Shown here one piece after another: positions 299 through 34,617 of a DNA stretch of 34,667 bases. A program made the position numbers and the translations under genes. This stretch comes from an uncultured Lentisphaeria bacterium (GTDB taxonomy: Bacteria; Verrucomicrobiota; Lentisphaeria; Oligosphaerales; Oligosphaeraceae), in NCBI GenBank assembly GCA_945827525.1, contig CALZPA010000006.1, positions 1 to 34,667 on the forward strand, read 5' to 3'. Numbering within the stretch: the first letter of the stretch is position 1; every line of letters begins with the position of its first letter. The notes below the pieces were generated by a model, which was given only the letters and a program-made list of their open reading frames with translations, did no database searches and had not been told where the DNA came from.

Positions 299-325
299 CC
301 CAATGTGCCCTATGGGTGGCTATGA
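299..325 (+). repeat. Short 9-nt periodic tract (cccaatgtg/ccctatggg/tggctatga)
   Basis: Three consecutive nonamers sharing a central (c)(c/t)atg core, lying between the HipA-like start and the stop of the downstream-listed gene at 334. Confidence 0.5.
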
Positions 326-333
326 GCAGCTGG

Positions 334-2088
334 CTATTTGATTTCGGATTCCTTGATGTCCTCGGCGGGTGGGATGAAGAGTTGCTTCATGGCGAGTTCG
401 CTGTTGAAGCGTTCGCGGAGGATGACGGCGCGGGGGGACTTGAGGTTGTTGAGGATGGCCTGGAATTCCTCTGGTGTCTTGGGGATGGTGGCGGGTCTCT
501 CGAGGAGGAGGAGGGTTTCGGTGAGGGTGTTGAGGACGACCTGCTGCCAGGGGGCGATGTCGCGGCGCAGCTCGGTGCCCTTGATGAAGGTTCGGTAGTT
601 GAAGTAGGCGCGCTTGGCTTCGAGGAGGTAGTTGTCGCCGACGGTGTTCTGCTCGTCGCTGCCGAGGGAGTATTCGAGGAAGGCCTGGAAGAGGAGTGCT
701 CGGACGATGGCGCTGGCGTCCTTGTTGGAGGGCGCGACGAGGGTGTCGGCGAGTTCGCGTCGTGCGAAGTCCTTGAGGTCGGCCTCGAATTTGGTGCCGT
801 AGCGTTTGGAGCCGTCGGGGTTCTTGACCTCGTTTCCGAGGGCCATGAAGCGTCTGGCCTCCTTGAGTCGTCCGTTGATGTAGAGCTGGGTGATGGCTCG
901 GGAGAGGAAATTCATGTAGGCGCCGCCGATGGTCTCGACGCCGAACTGGTCGAGGGCCTCGCGGTAGACCTTGTTGGCGGCCTCGGCGAGTTCGAGGTTG
1001 GGCTTGATCTCGATGTGCTGGATGTTCTCGTACATGAGGTCGTCGTCCTTGTTGGCGATGTAGACGAGCTTTCCGGAGACGAAGGCGTTCTGGAGTGACT
1101 GGAAGACCATGCGCTCGCACTGGAGCTGCTTGAATTTGGCGTCGTTATCGCGTGAGCTGGTCCAGCGGTCCTTGCCGCGTTCGGCCCAGTAGATGGCATG
1201 GGCCTCTGGGAGTCTCCAGTCGAATTCGCCGTGCTTGCGGTTGAGCTTCATGATCCAGATGGGGTCGAGTCGGTACTTGCGGACGATCCAGCGGGTGCGG
1301 AGGCAGAGCTCGACCATTTCGGCGATGCCGGCGTCGCGCATGTCCTGCCGGAGCTCGCGCGGCATGATGGCGGCGTGGGTGCGGAAGGCGTCCTCGAGGG
1401 CGTCGAAGGACTCGACGGCGTGTTTGGCGAGGAGGGCGTTGTAGGTCTTGAATTTGGCTTCGCCGAGGGAGGCCTTGAGCTTGGCTTCGTTGTCGGGGGC
1501 CTTGGCGATGAGCTCCCACTGTCCGTAGTAGGGTCCGAAGAGGCGGATCATCTCCTTGGCGAATTCGTCCTTGTAGAATTTGTTGGCGTCGTCGAGGTCC
1601 TGTCCCATCTTGTGCTGGTAGATCCAGCCGAGCTGCTGGAAGAGGGCGGGGTCTGCGGGGTTGCGCTCGAGGGCCTCGTCGCGGATGAGCTCGATGCCTC
1701 TCTTGACCCAGCGCCAGCGGTCCTCGAAGCGGGTGAAGGTGACGGAGACGTTGTAGGCCATGTTCCAGGCGAGGAAGGCGGTGGAGGGGGTGTAGCGAGG
1801 CTGGAGCTTGACGATCCAGCTGGCGAGCTGGACCATCTCGAAGTAGTTGCCCTCCTCCTGCATCTTGGTGGAGCGGAGCCAGAGGTAGTCGGCGAGGAGT
1901 CCGCGGAAGCCGCCGAGGGCGACGGTGGTGAAGGCGAGCATGGGCGGGGCGTTCTCGAGCGGCTCGGTGTCGGTGAGCTCCTTCTCGTAGCGGATGGAGT
2001 TGAGCCGTGACTGGATGCCCGAGAGGCCGAGGCCCATCACGAAGAGGACGGCGATGGCCAGGAGAATGCTGCTGTACTTGTTTTTCAT
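334..2088 (-). CDS. Membrane-anchored TPR-like protein of unknown function
   Basis: Re-started at MKNKYSSILLAIAVLFVMGLGLSGIQ (cat 2086-2088): N-terminal TM helix and helical repeat-like body. Start overlaps the stop of the permease gene by 4 nt (ATGA). Confidence 0.8.
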   Translation of the reverse strand: MKNKYSSILLAIAVLFVMGLGLSGIQSRLNSIRYEKELTDTEPLENAPPMLAFTTVALGGFRGLLADYLWLRSTKMQEEGNYFEMVQLASWIVKLQPRYTPSTAFLAWNMAYNVSVTFTRFEDRWRWVKRGIELIRDEALERNPADPALFQQLGWIYQHKMGQDLDDANKFYKDEFAKEMIRLFGPYYGQWELIAKAPDNEAKLKASLGEAKFKTYNALLAKHAVESFDALEDAFRTHAAIMPRELRQDMRDAGIAEMVELCLRTRWIVRKYRLDPIWIMKLNRKHGEFDWRLPEAHAIYWAERGKDRWTSSRDNDAKFKQLQCERMVFQSLQNAFVSGKLVYIANKDDDLMYENIQHIEIKPNLELAEAANKVYREALDQFGVETIGGAYMNFLSRAITQLYINGRLKEARRFMALGNEVKNPDGSKRYGTKFEADLKDFARRELADTLVAPSNKDASAIVRALLFQAFLEYSLGSDEQNTVGDNYLLEAKRAYFNYRTFIKGTELRRDIAPWQQVVLNTLTETLLLLERPATIPKTPEEFQAILNNLKSPRAVILRERFNSELAMKQLFIPPAEDIKESEIK

Positions 2089-6359: not shown

Positions 6360-6908
6360 GTGTCTATGGAACAGGTGATTGGCTTTCTTCAGAACAGCTA
6401 TGTGTACTGTGCGGTGGCGGGCACGGCGGTGTTCGCGGTGCTGTTCGTGATGCAGCTGATGGGGGGAGAAGCCGACGGCGCGGACGGCGCGGACGGTGCG
6501 GACAGCGTGCTGGAGGGGATGAACATCTTCTCCATCCGGAGCGTCATGGCGTTTCTGGCGACCTATGGGTGGGCGGGGCTGTGCTTCCGCCACCAGGGCT
6601 GGAGCGGCGTGGCGATAGCGCTGGGCTGCGGCGTGTTCATGATGCTGGTCATCTCGTTTCTGATGTCGTTTCTGATGCGGATGCAGTCGAGCGGCAATCT
6701 GAGCGTGGAGGACTATGTGGGGAGCAGTGGCCGGGTGTATCTGTCGATACCTGGCGGCCGTGCGTCCGGGGGGCGTGTCATTGTGACGCTCAAGGGCTGC
6801 ACGCGCGAGGTGGCGGCCTGTGCGGACGAGCCCATCGCGCAGGGCGTCGAGGTGACGATTGTGGCGGCGCTGTCGGCGAGCGTCTATCTGGTCAGGCCGC
6901 TTGCCTGA
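6360..6908 (+). CDS. NfeD-like membrane protein with C-terminal OB-fold-like domain
   Basis: N-terminal TM segments, then GSSGRVYLSIPGGRASGGRVIVTLKGCTREVAACADEPIAQGVEVTIVAAL, which resembles the NfeD C-terminal domain. Start GTG 6360 or ATG 6366. Confidence 0.6.
   Translation: MSMEQVIGFLQNSYVYCAVAGTAVFAVLFVMQLMGGEADGADGADGADSVLEGMNIFSIRSVMAFLATYGWAGLCFRHQGWSGVAIALGCGVFMMLVISFLMSFLMRMQSSGNLSVEDYVGSSGRVYLSIPGGRASGGRVIVTLKGCTREVAACADEPIAQGVEVTIVAALSASVYLVRPLA
6471..6506 (+). repeat. In-frame 9-nt tandem repeat (gcggacggc)x4 encoding ADGADGADGADS
   Basis: gccgacggc gcggacggc gcggacggt gcggacagc. Confidence 0.85.
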
Positions 6909-6924
6909 GCGGGAGGGCGGCAAG

Positions 6925-7512
6925 ATGGCGCAGGTGATGCAGGGCTTTGAGCAGACGGCGACGGCGCTGCTGGTGATAGACATGCAGCGCGACTTTGTGG
7001 AGCCGTCGGGAGCGCTGTGTGTGGCGGGGGCGGCGGCGACGGTGCCGCAGTTGGCCCGCCTGCTGTCGTGGTTCCGCGAGCCTGGCCGTGGCGCGGTCTT
7101 TCATGTGGTTCGCGCGTATCGGGCGGATGGCTTGGATGTGGAGCTGGCGCGTCGTCCGGCGTTTTGGCGTCGTCCGGCGGTGGTGGCGGGGACGCGGGGC
7201 GCGGAGATTGTGCCGGAGCTGTGTCCGGTGGCGGGGGAGCGGGTCATCGTGAAGCCGCGCTACAGCGCGTTTTTCCGGACGGAGCTGGAGCTGTGCCTGC
7301 GGGCGCTGGGCGTGCGTCGGGTGGTGGTTTCCGGCACGCAGTACCCGAACTGCATCCGGGCGACGGTGACGGACGCGCTGTCGCTGGACTTCGAGGTGAC
7401 GGTGGTGACGGACTGCTGCAGCGCGGCGTCGGCGGCCGTCGCCGCCGCGAACGTGCGCGACATGGCGAGGCTGGGCGCGTCGTGCGTCACGCTGAACGAA
7501 CTCGTCTCCTGA
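6925..7512 (+). CDS. Cysteine hydrolase, isochorismatase/nicotinamidase family
   Basis: Start MAQVMQGFEQTATALLVIDMQRDFVEP. Catalytic Asp (DMQRDF), Lys (IVKPRYSAF) and Cys (GTQYPNCIRATV) motifs. Confidence 0.88.
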   Translation: MAQVMQGFEQTATALLVIDMQRDFVEPSGALCVAGAAATVPQLARLLSWFREPGRGAVFHVVRAYRADGLDVELARRPAFWRRPAVVAGTRGAEIVPELCPVAGERVIVKPRYSAFFRTELELCLRALGVRRVVVSGTQYPNCIRATVTDALSLDFEVTVVTDCCSAASAAVAAANVRDMARLGASCVTLNELVS

Positions 7513-7517
7513 TTTTG

Positions 7518-7625
7518 TCCACAAAAGACACAAAGGAAGAGTCCACAAAAGACACAAAAGACTCAAAAGAAGAGTCCACAAAAGACGCAAAAGACTCAAA
7601 AGAAGAGTCCACAAAAGACAAAAAA
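7518..7625 (+). repeat. Tandem array: 9-nt units (tccacaaaa/gacacaaaa/gactcaaaa) + gaagag hexamer, forming a 33-nt higher-order repeat
   Basis: Manual phasing: copy 1 (24 nt) 7518-7541, copy 2 (33 nt) 7542-7574, copy 3 (33 nt) 7575-7607, partial copy 4 7608-7625. Confidence 0.92.
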
Positions 7626-7658
7626 GGAGCCGCCACGGGGGGAACCGTGGCGGCTCTT
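7621..7658 (-). terminator. Rho-independent terminator for the GH2-like gene
   Basis: Perfect 12-bp stem GAGCCGCCACGG/CCGTGGCGGCTC (7627-7638 and 7645-7656). On the reverse strand it is followed by CTTTTTGTCTTTTG. Confidence 0.85.
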
Positions 7659-7685
7659 GGCGTTCAGAGAGGGGGGATGGTGCAA

Positions 7686-10600
7686 CTACCAGCGGTAGTA
7701 GCGGTAGGGGTCATCGTCCTTCTCGGGGGTCTGGAGGTAGAAGGAGTCGAGCCAGCGTCCGCGGACACGGAAGTGTGGCGTCTGGAGGATGCCGCCGGAC
7801 TGGAAGTTGTCGTTGATGCGGATGACGAGGACGTTCTTGGCGCCGTCGTGGCGGAGGAGCTGTTTGGGGATGGTGTAGGCTCTGGGGGCGACCCAGTAGT
7901 TGTCGGGGTTGGTCTTGGTGGTGATTTCGCCGAGGAACTGGCCGTTGAGCCAGGTCCAGGACTCGTCGTCGACGGGGCCGATATGGATGATGACGGGCTG
8001 GTCGTCGGGGAGGTGGGCGGGGGTGTCGAATTCGAGGCGGTACCAGAAGAGTCCGTTGTAGTCGGCGAGATCGGGGCGTTCGCTTTCGAAGGTGGCGGCG
8101 ACTCGGATGGGCTTCCAGGTGTCGTCGGGGGTGAAGGTGGGCTCGAACCACTTGAGGCTGCGTCCCTGGTCGTTGGGGTCGGGCTTGCCGAGCCAGCCGC
8201 GGTTGAGCTGGAGCTCAGTGGTGGCGGTGGGGGTGGCGGCGTTGTGGGCGAGCGGGTCGTCGAGGAAGCGGACGTTGAGCTTGTCGAGGAGACGAGCGGT
8301 GAGTCCGAGGGCGCGTCGCTGTGAGATGCGGAGATAGGGCTTGGCCTTGATGTCGAAGAGGGTGGCTGGGGCCTGCTGGAAGAGCTCGATGGTCTTGGGT
8401 GAGCGTCTTTCGGCGAGGGCGGGGTGCTGTGCAAAGTCAGCGGGCGGGAGCGGGGTGTAGCGCAGATGGGTGTGCCAGTAGAGGTCGGAGCTGGTGAGTC
8501 CGCGGGTGAGCCAGGGCTGGTTGTCGGGGAGTGGCTGTGGCATGGCGGTGGTCTCGGCGGCGTTGGGGATGCCGATGGCGTTGAGGTCCTTGGCGTCGAG
8601 ACCGAGGTTGAGGATGGCGGCGGGGGTGCCGGTGGGCTTGGGGGTTGCGTTGGCGAAGCCCTTTCCGCGGATGAGGATGCGTCCGTCGAGGGGTGAGCCG
8701 TCATAGGGGGTGACGTCGGCGTGGAGCTGTCGGAGCAGCTCGAGGGTTTCGGGGGCGCCGAGGTAGACGGCGGGCTGTGGGATGGGTTCGGAGCGTTCGG
8801 CTAGGAGACGGATGAGCTGGTGGACGGTCTCCTGTGCGCAGGGGTCGTCCTGGGTTCTGGCGGTGACGTCGAGCTGGCAGAAGAGGGTCTGTCCGCGTTC
8901 GGGGGAGAGGTGGAGGAGGAGGGGTGCGTACTGGAGGTCGAAGCCGCCGACGAGGAGGGGCAGCCAGGTTCCCCAGGTGGGCTTCTCGATGAGGACGCTG
9001 GCGACGTTGCCGCGGTTTCCGGCTCTCCAGACGCGCGTGTTGCGGAAGCCGAGCCAGTTCCAGGTGGGGTCGGAGTGCTCCTTTTCGGGGAGGTCGTCAA
9101 GGAAGGGTGGGGTGAGGGTGGCGTCGCCGCGCCAGTTGGCATAGCGGGCGGCGGGGAGGAGCTGCTCGAAGCCTCGGGTGGGGAAGAGCTCACGGAGTCC
9201 GTGGACATTGGTTCGGAAGCCGAGTCGGGCGGAGAGGGTGGGTTCGTCCTGCTCGAAGACGAGGACGCGTCCGCGGCGGATGGCCTGGTCGAGCCAGGGG
9301 AGTGCGGGCGCGTCGGCGAGGGCCTCGCGTCCGATGACGATGAGCTGGTCGAGGTTGGGGTTGTCGTCGGGCGCGAGGGTGGTGAGGTGGGAGTAGCCGA
9401 GCTTCCGGAGGAGGGCGGTGGTGAGTCCCTTGGGGTCGTAGAGCTGGAGTGGCCGGTCGGCGAAGGAGTGGCTGGTGAAGACCTCGATGTCGAGGGAGTC
9501 GGTCTGTCGGTCGCCGTTGGAGAAGGCGATGTCGGCGTGGATGGAGAAGGTCTGCGAGGCGGCGCCGTCGGCGGGCTGCGGGGCCTGGAAGACGAAGGGG
9601 ATGAAGAGGATGTCGCCGATGTCGGCGTGGGCGTTCAGGGTTTGGGTCTGTCCGTTGAGGGAGACGGTGGCGGTGACGTCGAGGGGGTGTCGGGTGTCGT
9701 TGATGGCGGCGATGGTCTTGCGGATGGTCTCGCCGGGTCGGAAGATGCGTGTCTTGGCGGTGAAGGTCTGCTGCTGGTCGGCGATGTAGGCGCAGGTGGG
9801 CATGTTCCAGCGGAGGAAGGCCTTGCCGACGGCGGTGGGCTGGATGTTGTCGCGGTGGAAGGCGTAGATGTAGTCGCCCCAGCCGATGAGGCGGTCGGGC
9901 GCGATGCCGGGTCGCTTGAGGTGTGTGAGGTCACGGTAGACGGGCAGGTCCTTTCTGGGGGTTCCCTTTTGCCAGAGGATGCCCTGGTCCCAGGGGAGCA
10001 TGGCGGAGACGCCGTAGGTGCGGTGGGCGCGCCAGTTGTCGACGGTGTACTTGCTGGTGAGCTGCTGGTAGAAGGGATAGGCTCCGAGGCCCCAGTTGAG
10101 CTGGTACCAGGGGAAGGGCTTGCCGGCGGCCCAGAGCCTCTCCTCGTTGGCGATGGCGTGGGTGCCGTGCGCGGCGGCCTGGCGGTAGACGTCCTCGCCG
10201 AATTCGGCGGCGGCGTTCTCGGCGGCCCAGAGTGACTGGAAGGCGGGTGTGGACCAGATGAAGGCGGGGCCGCGGTAGCTGGACCAGGTGGAGATGTGGG
10301 GGAGTCCCCATTCGACGAAGAAGACGGGCTTGACGCCGTTGGCGGCCCAGTGCGCCATCCAGTCGGAGCGCTCCTGCATGGGGGACCAGTTGAGGTAGAT
10401 GTTGATGCAGTGGAGGTCGCCGAGGTTTCCGGACTCGTGGTGGTAGACGGGGCGGGTGGGGTCGATGTCCTTGGCGATCCATTCGGAGTGCTTGGCCTGG
10501 ACGCGGCGGTTGGTCTTGCCGTAGGTGGCGAGGTCCTTCCAGTCGGGGCAGTCGGTGAACTGGTACTTGCCGTCGATCTTGAGTGGGTTCTGGTCGCCGA

Positions 10601-12473
10601 AGTAGCCGGTGGAGTTGTGGTTCATGGCGTACATGACGACGGCTGGGTTGTTGATGACCTTGCGGATGACGAAGCGGGTGAGGTCGGCGTAGCGTTTGCG
10701 GACGGCGGGGTCGAAGAGCTGCCAGCGGAAGTCGCCGAGGTGCGGGAGGGACCAGGACATGAGCATGCCGGTCTGCTGTCCGGCCTGGAGGAGTCCGTCG
10801 AGGTAGGACATCTGTCCGTAGCGGAAGTTGTAGTGGGCGTTGATGAGGAAGTTGAAGCCGTATTCGCGGGCGCGTCGGATGGTTTCGGTTGCGGCCTCGG
10901 TGGTGTTGAGCGCGGCGTCGGGGGCGGTTCCGGTGTAGCAGTGGAGGGCGCGGAGTCGGATGACGGAGCCGTTGAGGGTGAGGTCTTTGCCTCGGGTGGC
11001 GAATTCGCGGAAGCCGAAGGTGAAGGGCGTGAGCTGGTCGAGGAGGCTGCCGGTGGCACCGTCAGAGAGCTGGACGTCGGCGGTGAGGAGGGTTGGGGCG
11101 TCGATGTCCCAGCGTGGGGCGTCGGGCCAGGGGGCGGTGAAGGCGATGGTGCGGGTGTCGGTGTCTGGCTTCAGGTTCTGTGCCTGGAAGGTTTTGGTGG
11201 AGCCGTCGGGGAGGGTGACGGTGGCCTTGAGTCCGTAGGTCTGGCGGCTGTCGGGCGAGGTGTTGTCGAGTTCGGCCTTGAAGGTGATGGTTCCGTTGGC
11301 GACGGAGGTGATGACGGTGACGAAGGCGAGTCGCTGGGTCTTGGGTCGGGCGTGGAGGTAGAGGTCGCCGCAGAGTCCCCTTGACTTGACGGTGGCCTTG
11401 GACTTGATGATGCGTCCGGGGGCCATGAAGGTCTGTGTCTCGGCGTCGAGGGGGACGGCCTTGACGAGGATGGCGAGCTCCTGCTGGGAGCCGGGTCGGG
11501 CGAGCGGGGTGAGGTCGACCTCGCCGCCGGGGAAGTAGAGTTCGCCGGCGGGCTTGCCGTCGAGGAAGACTTTGGCGTAGGTGTTGAGGAGGGTGAATTC
11601 GACGGCGATGGCGCGGTTGGCCCATTCGTGGGGGAGGGTGATGGTGCGGCGGAACCAGGCCTGCGAGACGTCGCGGAGCTGGTCGGCGTGGTTGTCCTCA
11701 AGCCATTGGGCGACGAGCGGGACTTGGTTGGCGGTGGTGGAGAGCCAGTTGGCGGGCCAGGCATGGGGGACCTTGTACCAGCCCCAGCCGGTGCCGGAGG
11801 CGGGGATGGCGCTGTCCTCGCCGTCGGCGACGACGGGGCGAGCCTGCCAGAGGCCGTTGAGGGAGAGTCGGCTGCGGGTGGGGGTGTCCTGTCTCCAGGC
11901 GTCGTTGAGGGACTGTGCCTGGCTGGGGTCGATGGGGCAGGATGCGTCCTGGGGGCCGTTGAGCCGGCGGCGGGTCACGGTGAAGGTGACGTCCTGGAAG
12001 TCGACGGTGCCGGCGGAGCCGAAGTGTGAGCAGGAGAATTCGAGCCGGACGGCGTCCTTGGGGACGATGTACTCGCGCTGGCAGTCCTGCCAGTCGGTGG
12101 TTCCGGCGAAGCCGAAGACGTCGGGCCAGCCGCCGACCTGCTTGTTCTGGGCGTTGAAGAAGGCCATGGCGAGTCGTCCGTTCTGCCAGTCCTGCTTGCC
12201 GGTGACGAGTCCGGCGGTGCGGATGCGCGCCTTGAGGGCGAGACGGGCGACGTCGGGCTGGAGGCGGAGGCTCTGGGAGAGTCCCTGTCCGGGCTTGAGG
12301 GTGACGTGGACGGTGGCGTCGGGGGCGGTGACGGGGCGGATGTTGTCGTAGTTGCGCCAGCCGGTGACGGCGCCCTGGGCGTTGGTCTGCGAGAAGTCGG
12401 GATTGACGACGAGCTGCTGCGCGGCGAGGCAGAGGGGTAGGAGGAGCGTGGCAAGAAGGCGAAGGCGTTTCAT
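7686..12473 (-). CDS. Large secreted GH2-like glycoside hydrolase (beta-galactosidase/glucuronidase-type architecture)
   Basis: Signal peptide MKRLRLLATLLLPLCLAAQQ; jelly-roll sugar-binding region (AWFRRTITLPHEW...VEFTLLNTYAKVFLDGKPAGEL); TIM-barrel region with FFVEWGLPHIS; further C-terminal sugar-binding-like domain (LFWYRLEFDTPAHLP...WTWLNGQFLG). Confidence 0.8.
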   Translation of the reverse strand: MKRLRLLATLLLPLCLAAQQLVVNPDFSQTNAQGAVTGWRNYDNIRPVTAPDATVHVTLKPGQGLSQSLRLQPDVARLALKARIRTAGLVTGKQDWQNGRLAMAFFNAQNKQVGGWPDVFGFAGTTDWQDCQREYIVPKDAVRLEFSCSHFGSAGTVDFQDVTFTVTRRRLNGPQDASCPIDPSQAQSLNDAWRQDTPTRSRLSLNGLWQARPVVADGEDSAIPASGTGWGWYKVPHAWPANWLSTTANQVPLVAQWLEDNHADQLRDVSQAWFRRTITLPHEWANRAIAVEFTLLNTYAKVFLDGKPAGELYFPGGEVDLTPLARPGSQQELAILVKAVPLDAETQTFMAPGRIIKSKATVKSRGLCGDLYLHARPKTQRLAFVTVITSVANGTITFKAELDNTSPDSRQTYGLKATVTLPDGSTKTFQAQNLKPDTDTRTIAFTAPWPDAPRWDIDAPTLLTADVQLSDGATGSLLDQLTPFTFGFREFATRGKDLTLNGSVIRLRALHCYTGTAPDAALNTTEAATETIRRAREYGFNFLINAHYNFRYGQMSYLDGLLQAGQQTGMLMSWSLPHLGDFRWQLFDPAVRKRYADLTRFVIRKVINNPAVVMYAMNHNSTGYFGDQNPLKIDGKYQFTDCPDWKDLATYGKTNRRVQAKHSEWIAKDIDPTRPVYHHESGNLGDLHCINIYLNWSPMQERSDWMAHWAANGVKPVFFVEWGLPHISTWSSYRGPAFIWSTPAFQSLWAAENAAAEFGEDVYRQAAAHGTHAIANEERLWAAGKPFPWYQLNWGLGAYPFYQQLTSKYTVDNWRAHRTYGVSAMLPWDQGILWQKGTPRKDLPVYRDLTHLKRPGIAPDRLIGWGDYIYAFHRDNIQPTAVGKAFLRWNMPTCAYIADQQQTFTAKTRIFRPGETIRKTIAAINDTRHPLDVTATVSLNGQTQTLNAHADIGDILFIPFVFQAPQPADGAASQTFSIHADIAFSNGDRQTDSLDIEVFTSHSFADRPLQLYDPKGLTTALLRKLGYSHLTTLAPDDNPNLDQLIVIGREALADAPALPWLDQAIRRGRVLVFEQDEPTLSARLGFRTNVHGLRELFPTRGFEQLLPAARYANWRGDATLTPPFLDDLPEKEHSDPTWNWLGFRNTRVWRAGNRGNVASVLIEKPTWGTWLPLLVGGFDLQYAPLLLHLSPERGQTLFCQLDVTARTQDDPCAQETVHQLIRLLAERSEPIPQPAVYLGAPETLELLRQLHADVTPYDGSPLDGRILIRGKGFANATPKPTGTPAAILNLGLDAKDLNAIGIPNAAETTAMPQPLPDNQPWLTRGLTSSDLYWHTHLRYTPLPPADFAQHPALAERRSPKTIELFQQAPATLFDIKAKPYLRISQRRALGLTARLLDKLNVRFLDDPLAHNAATPTATTELQLNRGWLGKPDPNDQGRSLKWFEPTFTPDDTWKPIRVAATFESERPDLADYNGLFWYRLEFDTPAHLPDDQPVIIHIGPVDDESWTWLNGQFLGEITTKTNPDNYWVAPRAYTIPKQLLRHDGAKNVLVIRINDNFQSGGILQTPHFRVRGRWLDSFYLQTPEKDDDPYRYYRW

Positions 12474-20357: not shown

Positions 20358-20720
20358 TCAGGAATGGTGGTGGTGGCCGCAGCCGCAGTCGCAGTCGTCG
20401 TCGTCGTCTGGGAGGTCATGTATTTCGAGGTCGTCGTCGCCCTTGGAGACGAGTTTGATGGAGGGGTCGACCTTGACGAGGACGAAGTAGTCGGCGTCCT
20501 TGAGGAGGGGCGTGCCGTCGGAGGGGAGGATGTTGCGGGCGGCGCTGGAGGGGATCTGGAAGAGGGTGCCGTCGTCGGCGACGCAGGCGATGCGTCCGTT
20601 GGTGACGGAGGCCCGTCCTCGGAGGCACTGGAGGCTGACCTTCTGGCTCTGCGGGTCGGTGACCTTGACGAAGACGACGCAGAGCTTGCGTCCCTCGAGC
20701 TGCTGTGGGGAGACCGTCAT
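20358..20720 (-). CDS. Small protein with acidic, Cys/His-rich putative metal-binding tail
   Basis: MTVSPQQLEGRKLCVVFVKVTDPQSQKVSLQCLRGRASVTNGRIACVADDGTLFQIPSSAARNILPSDGTPLLKDADYFVLVKVDPSIKLVSKGDDDLEIHDLPDDDDDCDCGCGHHHHS. Start at cat 20718-20720. Confidence 0.75.
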   Translation of the reverse strand: MTVSPQQLEGRKLCVVFVKVTDPQSQKVSLQCLRGRASVTNGRIACVADDGTLFQIPSSAARNILPSDGTPLLKDADYFVLVKVDPSIKLVSKGDDDLEIHDLPDDDDDCDCGCGHHHHS

Positions 20721-20736
20721 GGGCGTGTGGCGGGTG

Positions 20737-20826
20737 GTGGATGGGGTGGATGGGGGATGGATGGGGCGAATGGGGGGATGGATGGGGCGAAGGGGGCGGA
20801 TGGGGCGAAGGGGGCGGATGGGGCGC
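20737..20826 (+). repeat. G-rich 9-nt tandem array, ten consecutive units
   Basis: gtggatggg gtggatggg ggatggatg gggcgaatg gggggatgg atggggcga agggggcgg atggggcga agggggcgg atggggcgc. The last part has an 18-nt higher-order period. Confidence 0.92.
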
Positions 20827-20870
20827 ACGGCGTCCGCCCCCGGCTCCAGTCGTTTGGCGCACAGTCTGAC

Positions 20871-20876
20871 AATATA
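20871..20876 (-). promoter_or_regulatory. Putative -10 element (TATATT) upstream of the small Asp/Cys/His protein gene
   Basis: Reverse strand TTCAAAGGCTATATTGTCAG. A near-identical TTCACATGGTATATTGTG lies at 29566-29571 upstream of the RNB gene. No convincing -35. Confidence 0.4.
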
Positions 20877-20926
20877 GCCTTTGAACGGCAAAACTCCAGC
20901 GTGGCGGTCATCTGGGGGAGGCGTGG

Positions 20927-34440: not shown

Positions 34441-34454
34441 GGACGCCGCATTCC

Positions 34455-34475
34455 GCCGAGCGGGGCGAGGCGGCG
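34455..34475 (+). repeat. 21-nt direct repeat, left copy (gccgagcggggcgaggcggcg)
   Basis: Matches 34597-34617 (gccgagcgaagcgaggcggcg) with two mismatches. Confidence 0.75.
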
Positions 34476-34482
34476 CCTAGAA

Positions 34483-34583
34483 CCCTATGTGCCTTTTGCG
34501 GAGGACGCCTAGGGCAATGAGCCCTATGAGCCCTATGGGAAAAAACACACAAAACACACAAGACGAGAGTGACGAGAAGAAAG
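34483..34583 (+). repeat. Composite 9-nt periodic tract switching from CCCTATGAG-type to ACACAAAAC-type units
   Basis: 34483-34500 ccctatgtg ccttttgcg; then in one phase from 34512: gggcaatga gccctatga gccctatgg gaaaaaaca cacaaaaca cacaagacg agagtgacg agaagaaag. Confidence 0.75.
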
Positions 34584-34596
34584 CAACAGGAAAAAC

Positions 34597-34617
34597 GCCG
34601 AGCGAAGCGAGGCGGCG
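34597..34617 (+). repeat. 21-nt direct repeat, right copy (gccgagcgaagcgaggcggcg)
   Basis: See 34455-34475. Confidence 0.75.

Follow-up and report, generated by a model that had tools for sequence, protein, structure and literature searches.

A nonamer tract in a Lentisphaeria contig is one copy of a dispersed composite repeat, in a genome whose noncoding tandem arrays prefer a 9-nt unit

The window analysed in this study, a stretch of 34,667 nucleotides from an uncultured Lentisphaeria bacterium, is a complete 34.7-kb contig of a 3.70-Mb draft genome in 355 contigs. Close to its 3' end, at 34512-34583, it carries eight consecutive nonamers (gggcaatga gccctatga gccctatgg gaaaaaaca cacaaaaca cacaagacg agagtgacg agaagaaag), which the original prediction had read exactly to the letter. 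The unit families joined there had also been described as occurring separately elsewhere in the window; the array named at 7518-7625 is real, whereas no more than about two or three CCCTATG-like units are present in the tract at 299-325. The NAD synthetase protein does not place the organism, as its matches of 46-53% identity come equally from several phyla. The repeat features are as follows:

299..325 (+): short run of CCCTATG-like units, close to the 3' end of the gene at 334-2088 (-)
7517..7636 (+): an array of its own, of CACAAAAGA type, whose higher-order unit is 33 nt long
34453..34473 (+): upstream hairpin module CCGCCGAGCGGGGCGAGGCGG, a variant of the CCGCCGAGCGAAGCGAGGCGG module (from the sequence and counts of the GAGCGAAGCGAGG core)
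34487..34511 (+): 5' part of the composite repeat (ATGTGCCTTTTGCGGAGGACGCCTA; consensus ATGAGCCTTTCGCGGAGGAAGCCTA), from BLAST and a 19-copy alignment
34512..34538 (+): GGGCAATGA and two CCCTATG-type nonamers, the number of units differing between copies
34539..34563 (+): junction and AC-rich module (GAAAAAACACACAAAACACACAAGA), from comparison of copies
34564..34583 (+): CGAGAGTGACGAGAAGAAAG, the beginning of the ACGAGAGTG nonamer family, from the sequence
34596..34615 (+): downstream hairpin module CGCCGAGCGAAGCGAGGCGG, from the sequence and copy alignment

The CACAAAAGA-type array sits between the convergent genes 6901-7512 (+) and 7686-12473 (-), and within 7517-7670 it is followed by a terminator-like hairpin. 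A further array of GGATGGGGC and GAATGGGGG, with units of 9 and about 18-20 nt, occupies 20738-20825, just upstream of the point where the gene called at 20358-20891 (-) likely begins (MTVSPQQLEGRKL); the ORF caller takes this array into the gene as an RPIRPL repeat. The sequence GCGAAGC, an unusually stable DNA mini-hairpin, is present in the hairpin module at 34596-34615 and in those of many copies of the composite repeat described below, and it might bear on slippage or dispersal. The GAGCGAAGCGAGG core of the upstream module occurs 22 times in noncoding and once in coding DNA of a 1.2-Mb sample of this genome, against an expectation of 0.00.

The 72-nt tract at 34512-34583 matches itself at lag 9 in 39 of 63 positions, a score that none of 5000 first-order resamples reached, whether lag 9 alone or all lags from 4 to 19 are considered, and it is therefore 9-periodic beyond chance. 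Successive nonamers agree at 6, 8, 2, 7, 7, 4 and 5 of 9 positions, and the 2/9 step falls exactly where the CCCTATG-type turns into the ACACAAAAC-type (units GCCCTATGG and GAAAAAACA). Agreement between these junction units is at chance level; the CCCTATG and ACACAAAAC halves are each periodic, and nothing ties their registers to one another.

Comparison with the remainder of the genome identifies the tract as one copy of a dispersed, species-specific intergenic composite repeat of about 105-145 nt, to which window positions 34485-34528 match at 93% by BLAST. The composite consists of a 5' GCCTTTCGCGGAGGAAGCC module, a CCCTATGAG nonamer array, a GGGGAAAAACACACAAAACAAC module, CGAGAG units and a hairpin; as read around the hits, the modules follow one another as GCCTTTCGCGGAGGAAGCCTA, GGGCAATGAGCCCTATGGGnnnAATGAGCCCTATG(AGCCCTATG)n, GGGGAAAAACACACAAAACAACACAA, CGAGAG and the CCGCCGAGCGAAGCGAGGCGG hairpin. 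The pattern CCCTATGRGCCCTATG occurs 39 times in the genome and its reversal not once. With a wider composite as BLAST query 65 matches were obtained in this genome, while a 145-nt query gave 23 matches here and none in any of the 59 relatives searched. Nineteen copies can be aligned through the junction, all with identical module order. The number of CCCTATG units varies among the dispersed copies, a comparison between loci of a single assembly of the species rather than between alleles, and the AC-rich module GAAAAAACACACAAAACACACAAGA of the window is one A shorter than the GGGGAAAAACACACAAAACAACACAA found in the majority of the other copies. The copies are dispersed, since their flanking DNA differs from one to the next; one of them (L152) stops after CACAAAACAAC and continues into unrelated sequence. 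No terminal inverted repeat of the kind that marks a MITE is evident by eye in the 19-copy consensus, and the ends of the element abut other repeat modules. As the window tract is one of 19 copies with constant module order, the join between CCCTATG-type and ACACAAAAC-type units was copied along with the element, and the tract itself is ordinary, a single copy of a dispersed repeat. A structured RNA family is not supported, as Rfam returned only a sub-threshold match (E 0.18) and the consensus fold of the 19 copies is very weak (-4.5 kcal/mol) and gives no supported structure.

A separate finding concerns the unit length of the noncoding arrays of this genome. Arrays were defined as runs of at least 12 matching positions in the noncoding part of 1.2 Mb sampled from the genome, noncoding being defined by a home-made, approximate gene caller that erred at least once in the window, where it called a gene antisense to that for isochorismatase at 6901-7512. 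By this definition, and with a sampling of draft genomes that favoured contig starts, where repeats collect, 29 noncoding arrays at 20 loci were found at lag 9, belonging to eight unrelated unit families that include ACGAGAGTG (the most frequent), AATCGACTC, AGCCCTATG and AGATCCCCT. Every other lag from 5 to 15 was represented by at most four noncoding loci, and simulation from first-order composition predicted 0.00 noncoding arrays at lag 9. The preference of noncoding tandem arrays for a 9-nt unit is thus genome-wide and real, whatever the unit sequence. Many contigs (C9, C19, C22, C23, C51 and C59 of G000, and others) start or end within nonamer arrays; the repeats are therefore probably a main cause of assembly fragmentation, and true array lengths are probably underestimated.

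The arrays are unevenly placed with respect to genes. In this genome they occur in 12 of 58 convergent intergenic regions, in 19 of 450 co-oriented and in 2 of 87 divergent ones, an enrichment between convergent genes over the rest (Fisher p 1.7e-5). A relative of another genus represented by a single contig (G006) shows a bias in the same direction, though weaker (p 0.02), and the heptamer arrays of a relative from the same family (G001) show no convergent enrichment. Such a bias fits tolerance of arrays at gene 3' ends together with avoidance of promoters, and demonstrates no function.

The arrays of these relatives were examined as well. G006, which was sampled at spaced positions inside its one contig and hence without contig-start bias, has 44 lag-9 arrays, spread over 17 loci and built from other units (ACGGATCGG, ACACGGTGG and ACGTAGAGG among them). 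Its 9-nt arrays (L215-L234) comprise GATC-based ACCGATCAG and TCCGATCCG as well as GTCCACCGT and CTACGTCCT, joined by A-run linkers, and it additionally has one 8-nt and one 10-nt family. G001 has 25 arrays at lag 7, with units AATTAGG, AAAAGTG and ACGGGAG; its abundant noncoding 7-nt arrays in L172-L181 are of several sequences (ATTAGGA, TTCACTT, GACGGGA), and a few 9-nt arrays contain CTAG. No such arrays were found in the controls, a genome of another family (G037) and 200 kb of E. coli K-12. Unit length thus appears to be lineage-typical while unit sequence turns over, a pattern drawn from the few points that four sampled genomes of the order provide.

When 85,462 named genomes were scanned for a pair of CCCTATGAG units, 33 stretches were obtained. 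Many of these are single matches due to chance or seem to lie in coding DNA; a cluster in rumen Bacteroidales stands out. Metagenome-assembled genomes of rumen and gut Bacteroidales carry nonamer arrays with the unit CCTATRAGN, close to that of this genome (stretches L102, L103, L107, L108, L117, L121, L122, L129 and L131). The arrays of these bacteria (Prevotella, Muribaculum) share the 9-nt period and a nearly identical unit (GAGCCCTATG) with those described here, but they belong to other organisms, have different flanks and lack the other modules of the composite.

Repeats of 6-9 nt have been little studied (PMC4692102). The closest known counterparts of the present arrays are long simple sequence repeats (LSSRs, a class with units of 5-11 nt) whose unit is 7 nt, GGGNATC in Xanthomonas and Nostoc (PMC4692102) and TAACTGA in Beggiatoaceae (PMC4679880). 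Like these, the arrays of this genome are intergenic and imperfect, have one preferred length, occupy many loci per genome and are patchy among species; they also form tandem runs longer than composition predicts and are placed in noncoding DNA independently of codon periodicity. In contrast to them, the unit is 9 nt, several unrelated unit sequences of that length coexist in one genome, and convergent gene pairs are where the arrays are enriched; most TAACTGA arrays, by contrast, lie just upstream of start codons (PMC4679880). According to the summary in PMC4679880, Mrazek et al. (2007) proposed slippage with a preferred unit length of 7 nt; heptamers are described there as the long unit that bacteria usually favour, and the cause put forward is a polymerase contact of 7 nt. 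In the openly searchable literature we found no description of a 9-nt preference or of 9-nt intergenic arrays, the heptamer papers being nearest. With eight unrelated intergenic families of one unit length, and relatives of the same or another length, comparison of closely related genomes would make it possible to test an old idea, namely that slip length is set by the replication machinery.

The reading we favour, with a probability of roughly 0.6, is slipped-strand expansion at a lineage-typical length, tolerated mainly at gene 3' ends, combined with the copying of one composite element. Nonamer arrays would grow and shrink by slipped-strand DNA synthesis, as we infer from a single assembly in which module order, unit variation, flanks and junction lengths are observed directly, and the unit length would be typical of the lineage (9 nt here and in G006, 7 nt in G001). 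Arrays would persist mainly between gene 3' ends, where they might do little harm. The composite may have arisen when different arrays and hairpins chanced to stand side by side. Recombination, gene conversion or a trans-acting transposase may then have copied it as one element. A more tentative proposal, which we regard as possible and clearly the less probable of the two, is that a lineage-specific, sequence-independent determinant fixes the unit length of noncoding arrays and leaves the unit sequence free to turn over. Candidates for such a determinant, suggested with the same reserve, would be the contact length of the DNA polymerase, a repair enzyme or a dedicated synthesis system, giving 9 nt here and in G006 and 7 nt in G001.

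The original prediction had gone further, proposing that CCCTATG-type and ACACAAAAC-type units are fused in one 9-nt register and that the families form one 9-nt system. A modular recognition system of this kind, in which arrays of every family share a register recognised by a repeat protein or an RNA-binding protein, would agree with the 9-nt preference across unrelated units. Unrelated units rotate freely, so any single junction can be cut in phase and the claim is testable only with several copies. Among the 19 copies of the composite, the last CCTATG and the first CACAAAA lie 9, 10, 11 and 12 nt apart in 4, 10, 4 and 1 cases, respectively. Twelve of them have a 10-nt step between the first CACAA and the second, and only the window copy has one of 9 nt, because one A is missing there (L156 was also scored as 9 by the script, through a GCACA match, but its true step is 10). 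In G006, whose two main array types both contain GATC, noncoding GATC-to-GATC spacing is 9 nt in 109 cases and 12 nt in 15, yet despite this shared anchor the A-run junctions between the two types measure 12 nt in six of six. Family junctions therefore do not keep a 9-nt phase, neither in the 19 copies nor in G006, which is the kind of result that the original prediction had itself named as its refutation. Moreover, the relatives G012 and G014 carry the CACAAAA family (19 and 17 matches to CACAAAAG) but yield no match to CCCTATGAG arrays, so the families are not obligately linked, and the composite itself is missing from the 59 relatives. A search with PPR_2, the only protein family tried, gave no match, but as its control was silent too this result carries no weight. 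A common-register system is accordingly improbable: the phase-locked fusion of families is not supported, while the 9-nt preference behind it stands and merits a survey.

An even slimmer chance attaches to a REP/BIME-type element dispersed by a REP-associated tyrosine transposase. The composite does resemble BIME/REP elements in combining palindromes with short modules as a mosaic, in being scattered between genes and in preferring their 3' ends, but it is centred on a tandem nonamer array and not on paired REP palindromes. The genome (95% completeness) gave 0 matches to the Y1 transposase profile PF01797, for which the control was positive in 5 of 14 genomes; membership of the REP/RAYT group therefore fails, and RAYT dispersal was rejected in spite of the dispersed intergenic copies.

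Just as doubtful is the notion that the arrays are artefacts of the assembly or coding repeats missed in annotation, to which their frequent position at contig ends and the open frame of some tracts might point. Coding arrays of this genome favour every multiple of three, with lags 6, 12, 15 and 21 dominant, whereas noncoding arrays show mainly 9 and its multiples; as the dominant coding lags do not dominate in noncoding DNA, the 9-nt period is not leaked coding periodicity. Against an artefact stands the same 9-nt preference of G006 inside its single contig.

Least probable of all is that the arrays were written by a reverse transcriptase (RT) copying a short RNA template repeatedly, as reported for the DRT10 defence system, for although an RT can make tandem-repeat DNA, as outlined in PMC12632851, and one RT gene is present, this only RT found resembles group II or diversity-generating types and would not, as a single enzyme, account for eight unit families. 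The RT has its best NCBIfam match, below cut-off, to TIGR04416 and adjoins an HRDC-like (RecQ C-terminal-like) protein. Its ORF of 383 aa (L248:699-2286, G000 contig C104) overlaps a small protein matching the C-terminal part of RecQ models, and judged by its sequence the locus looks like a candidate diversity-generating retroelement.
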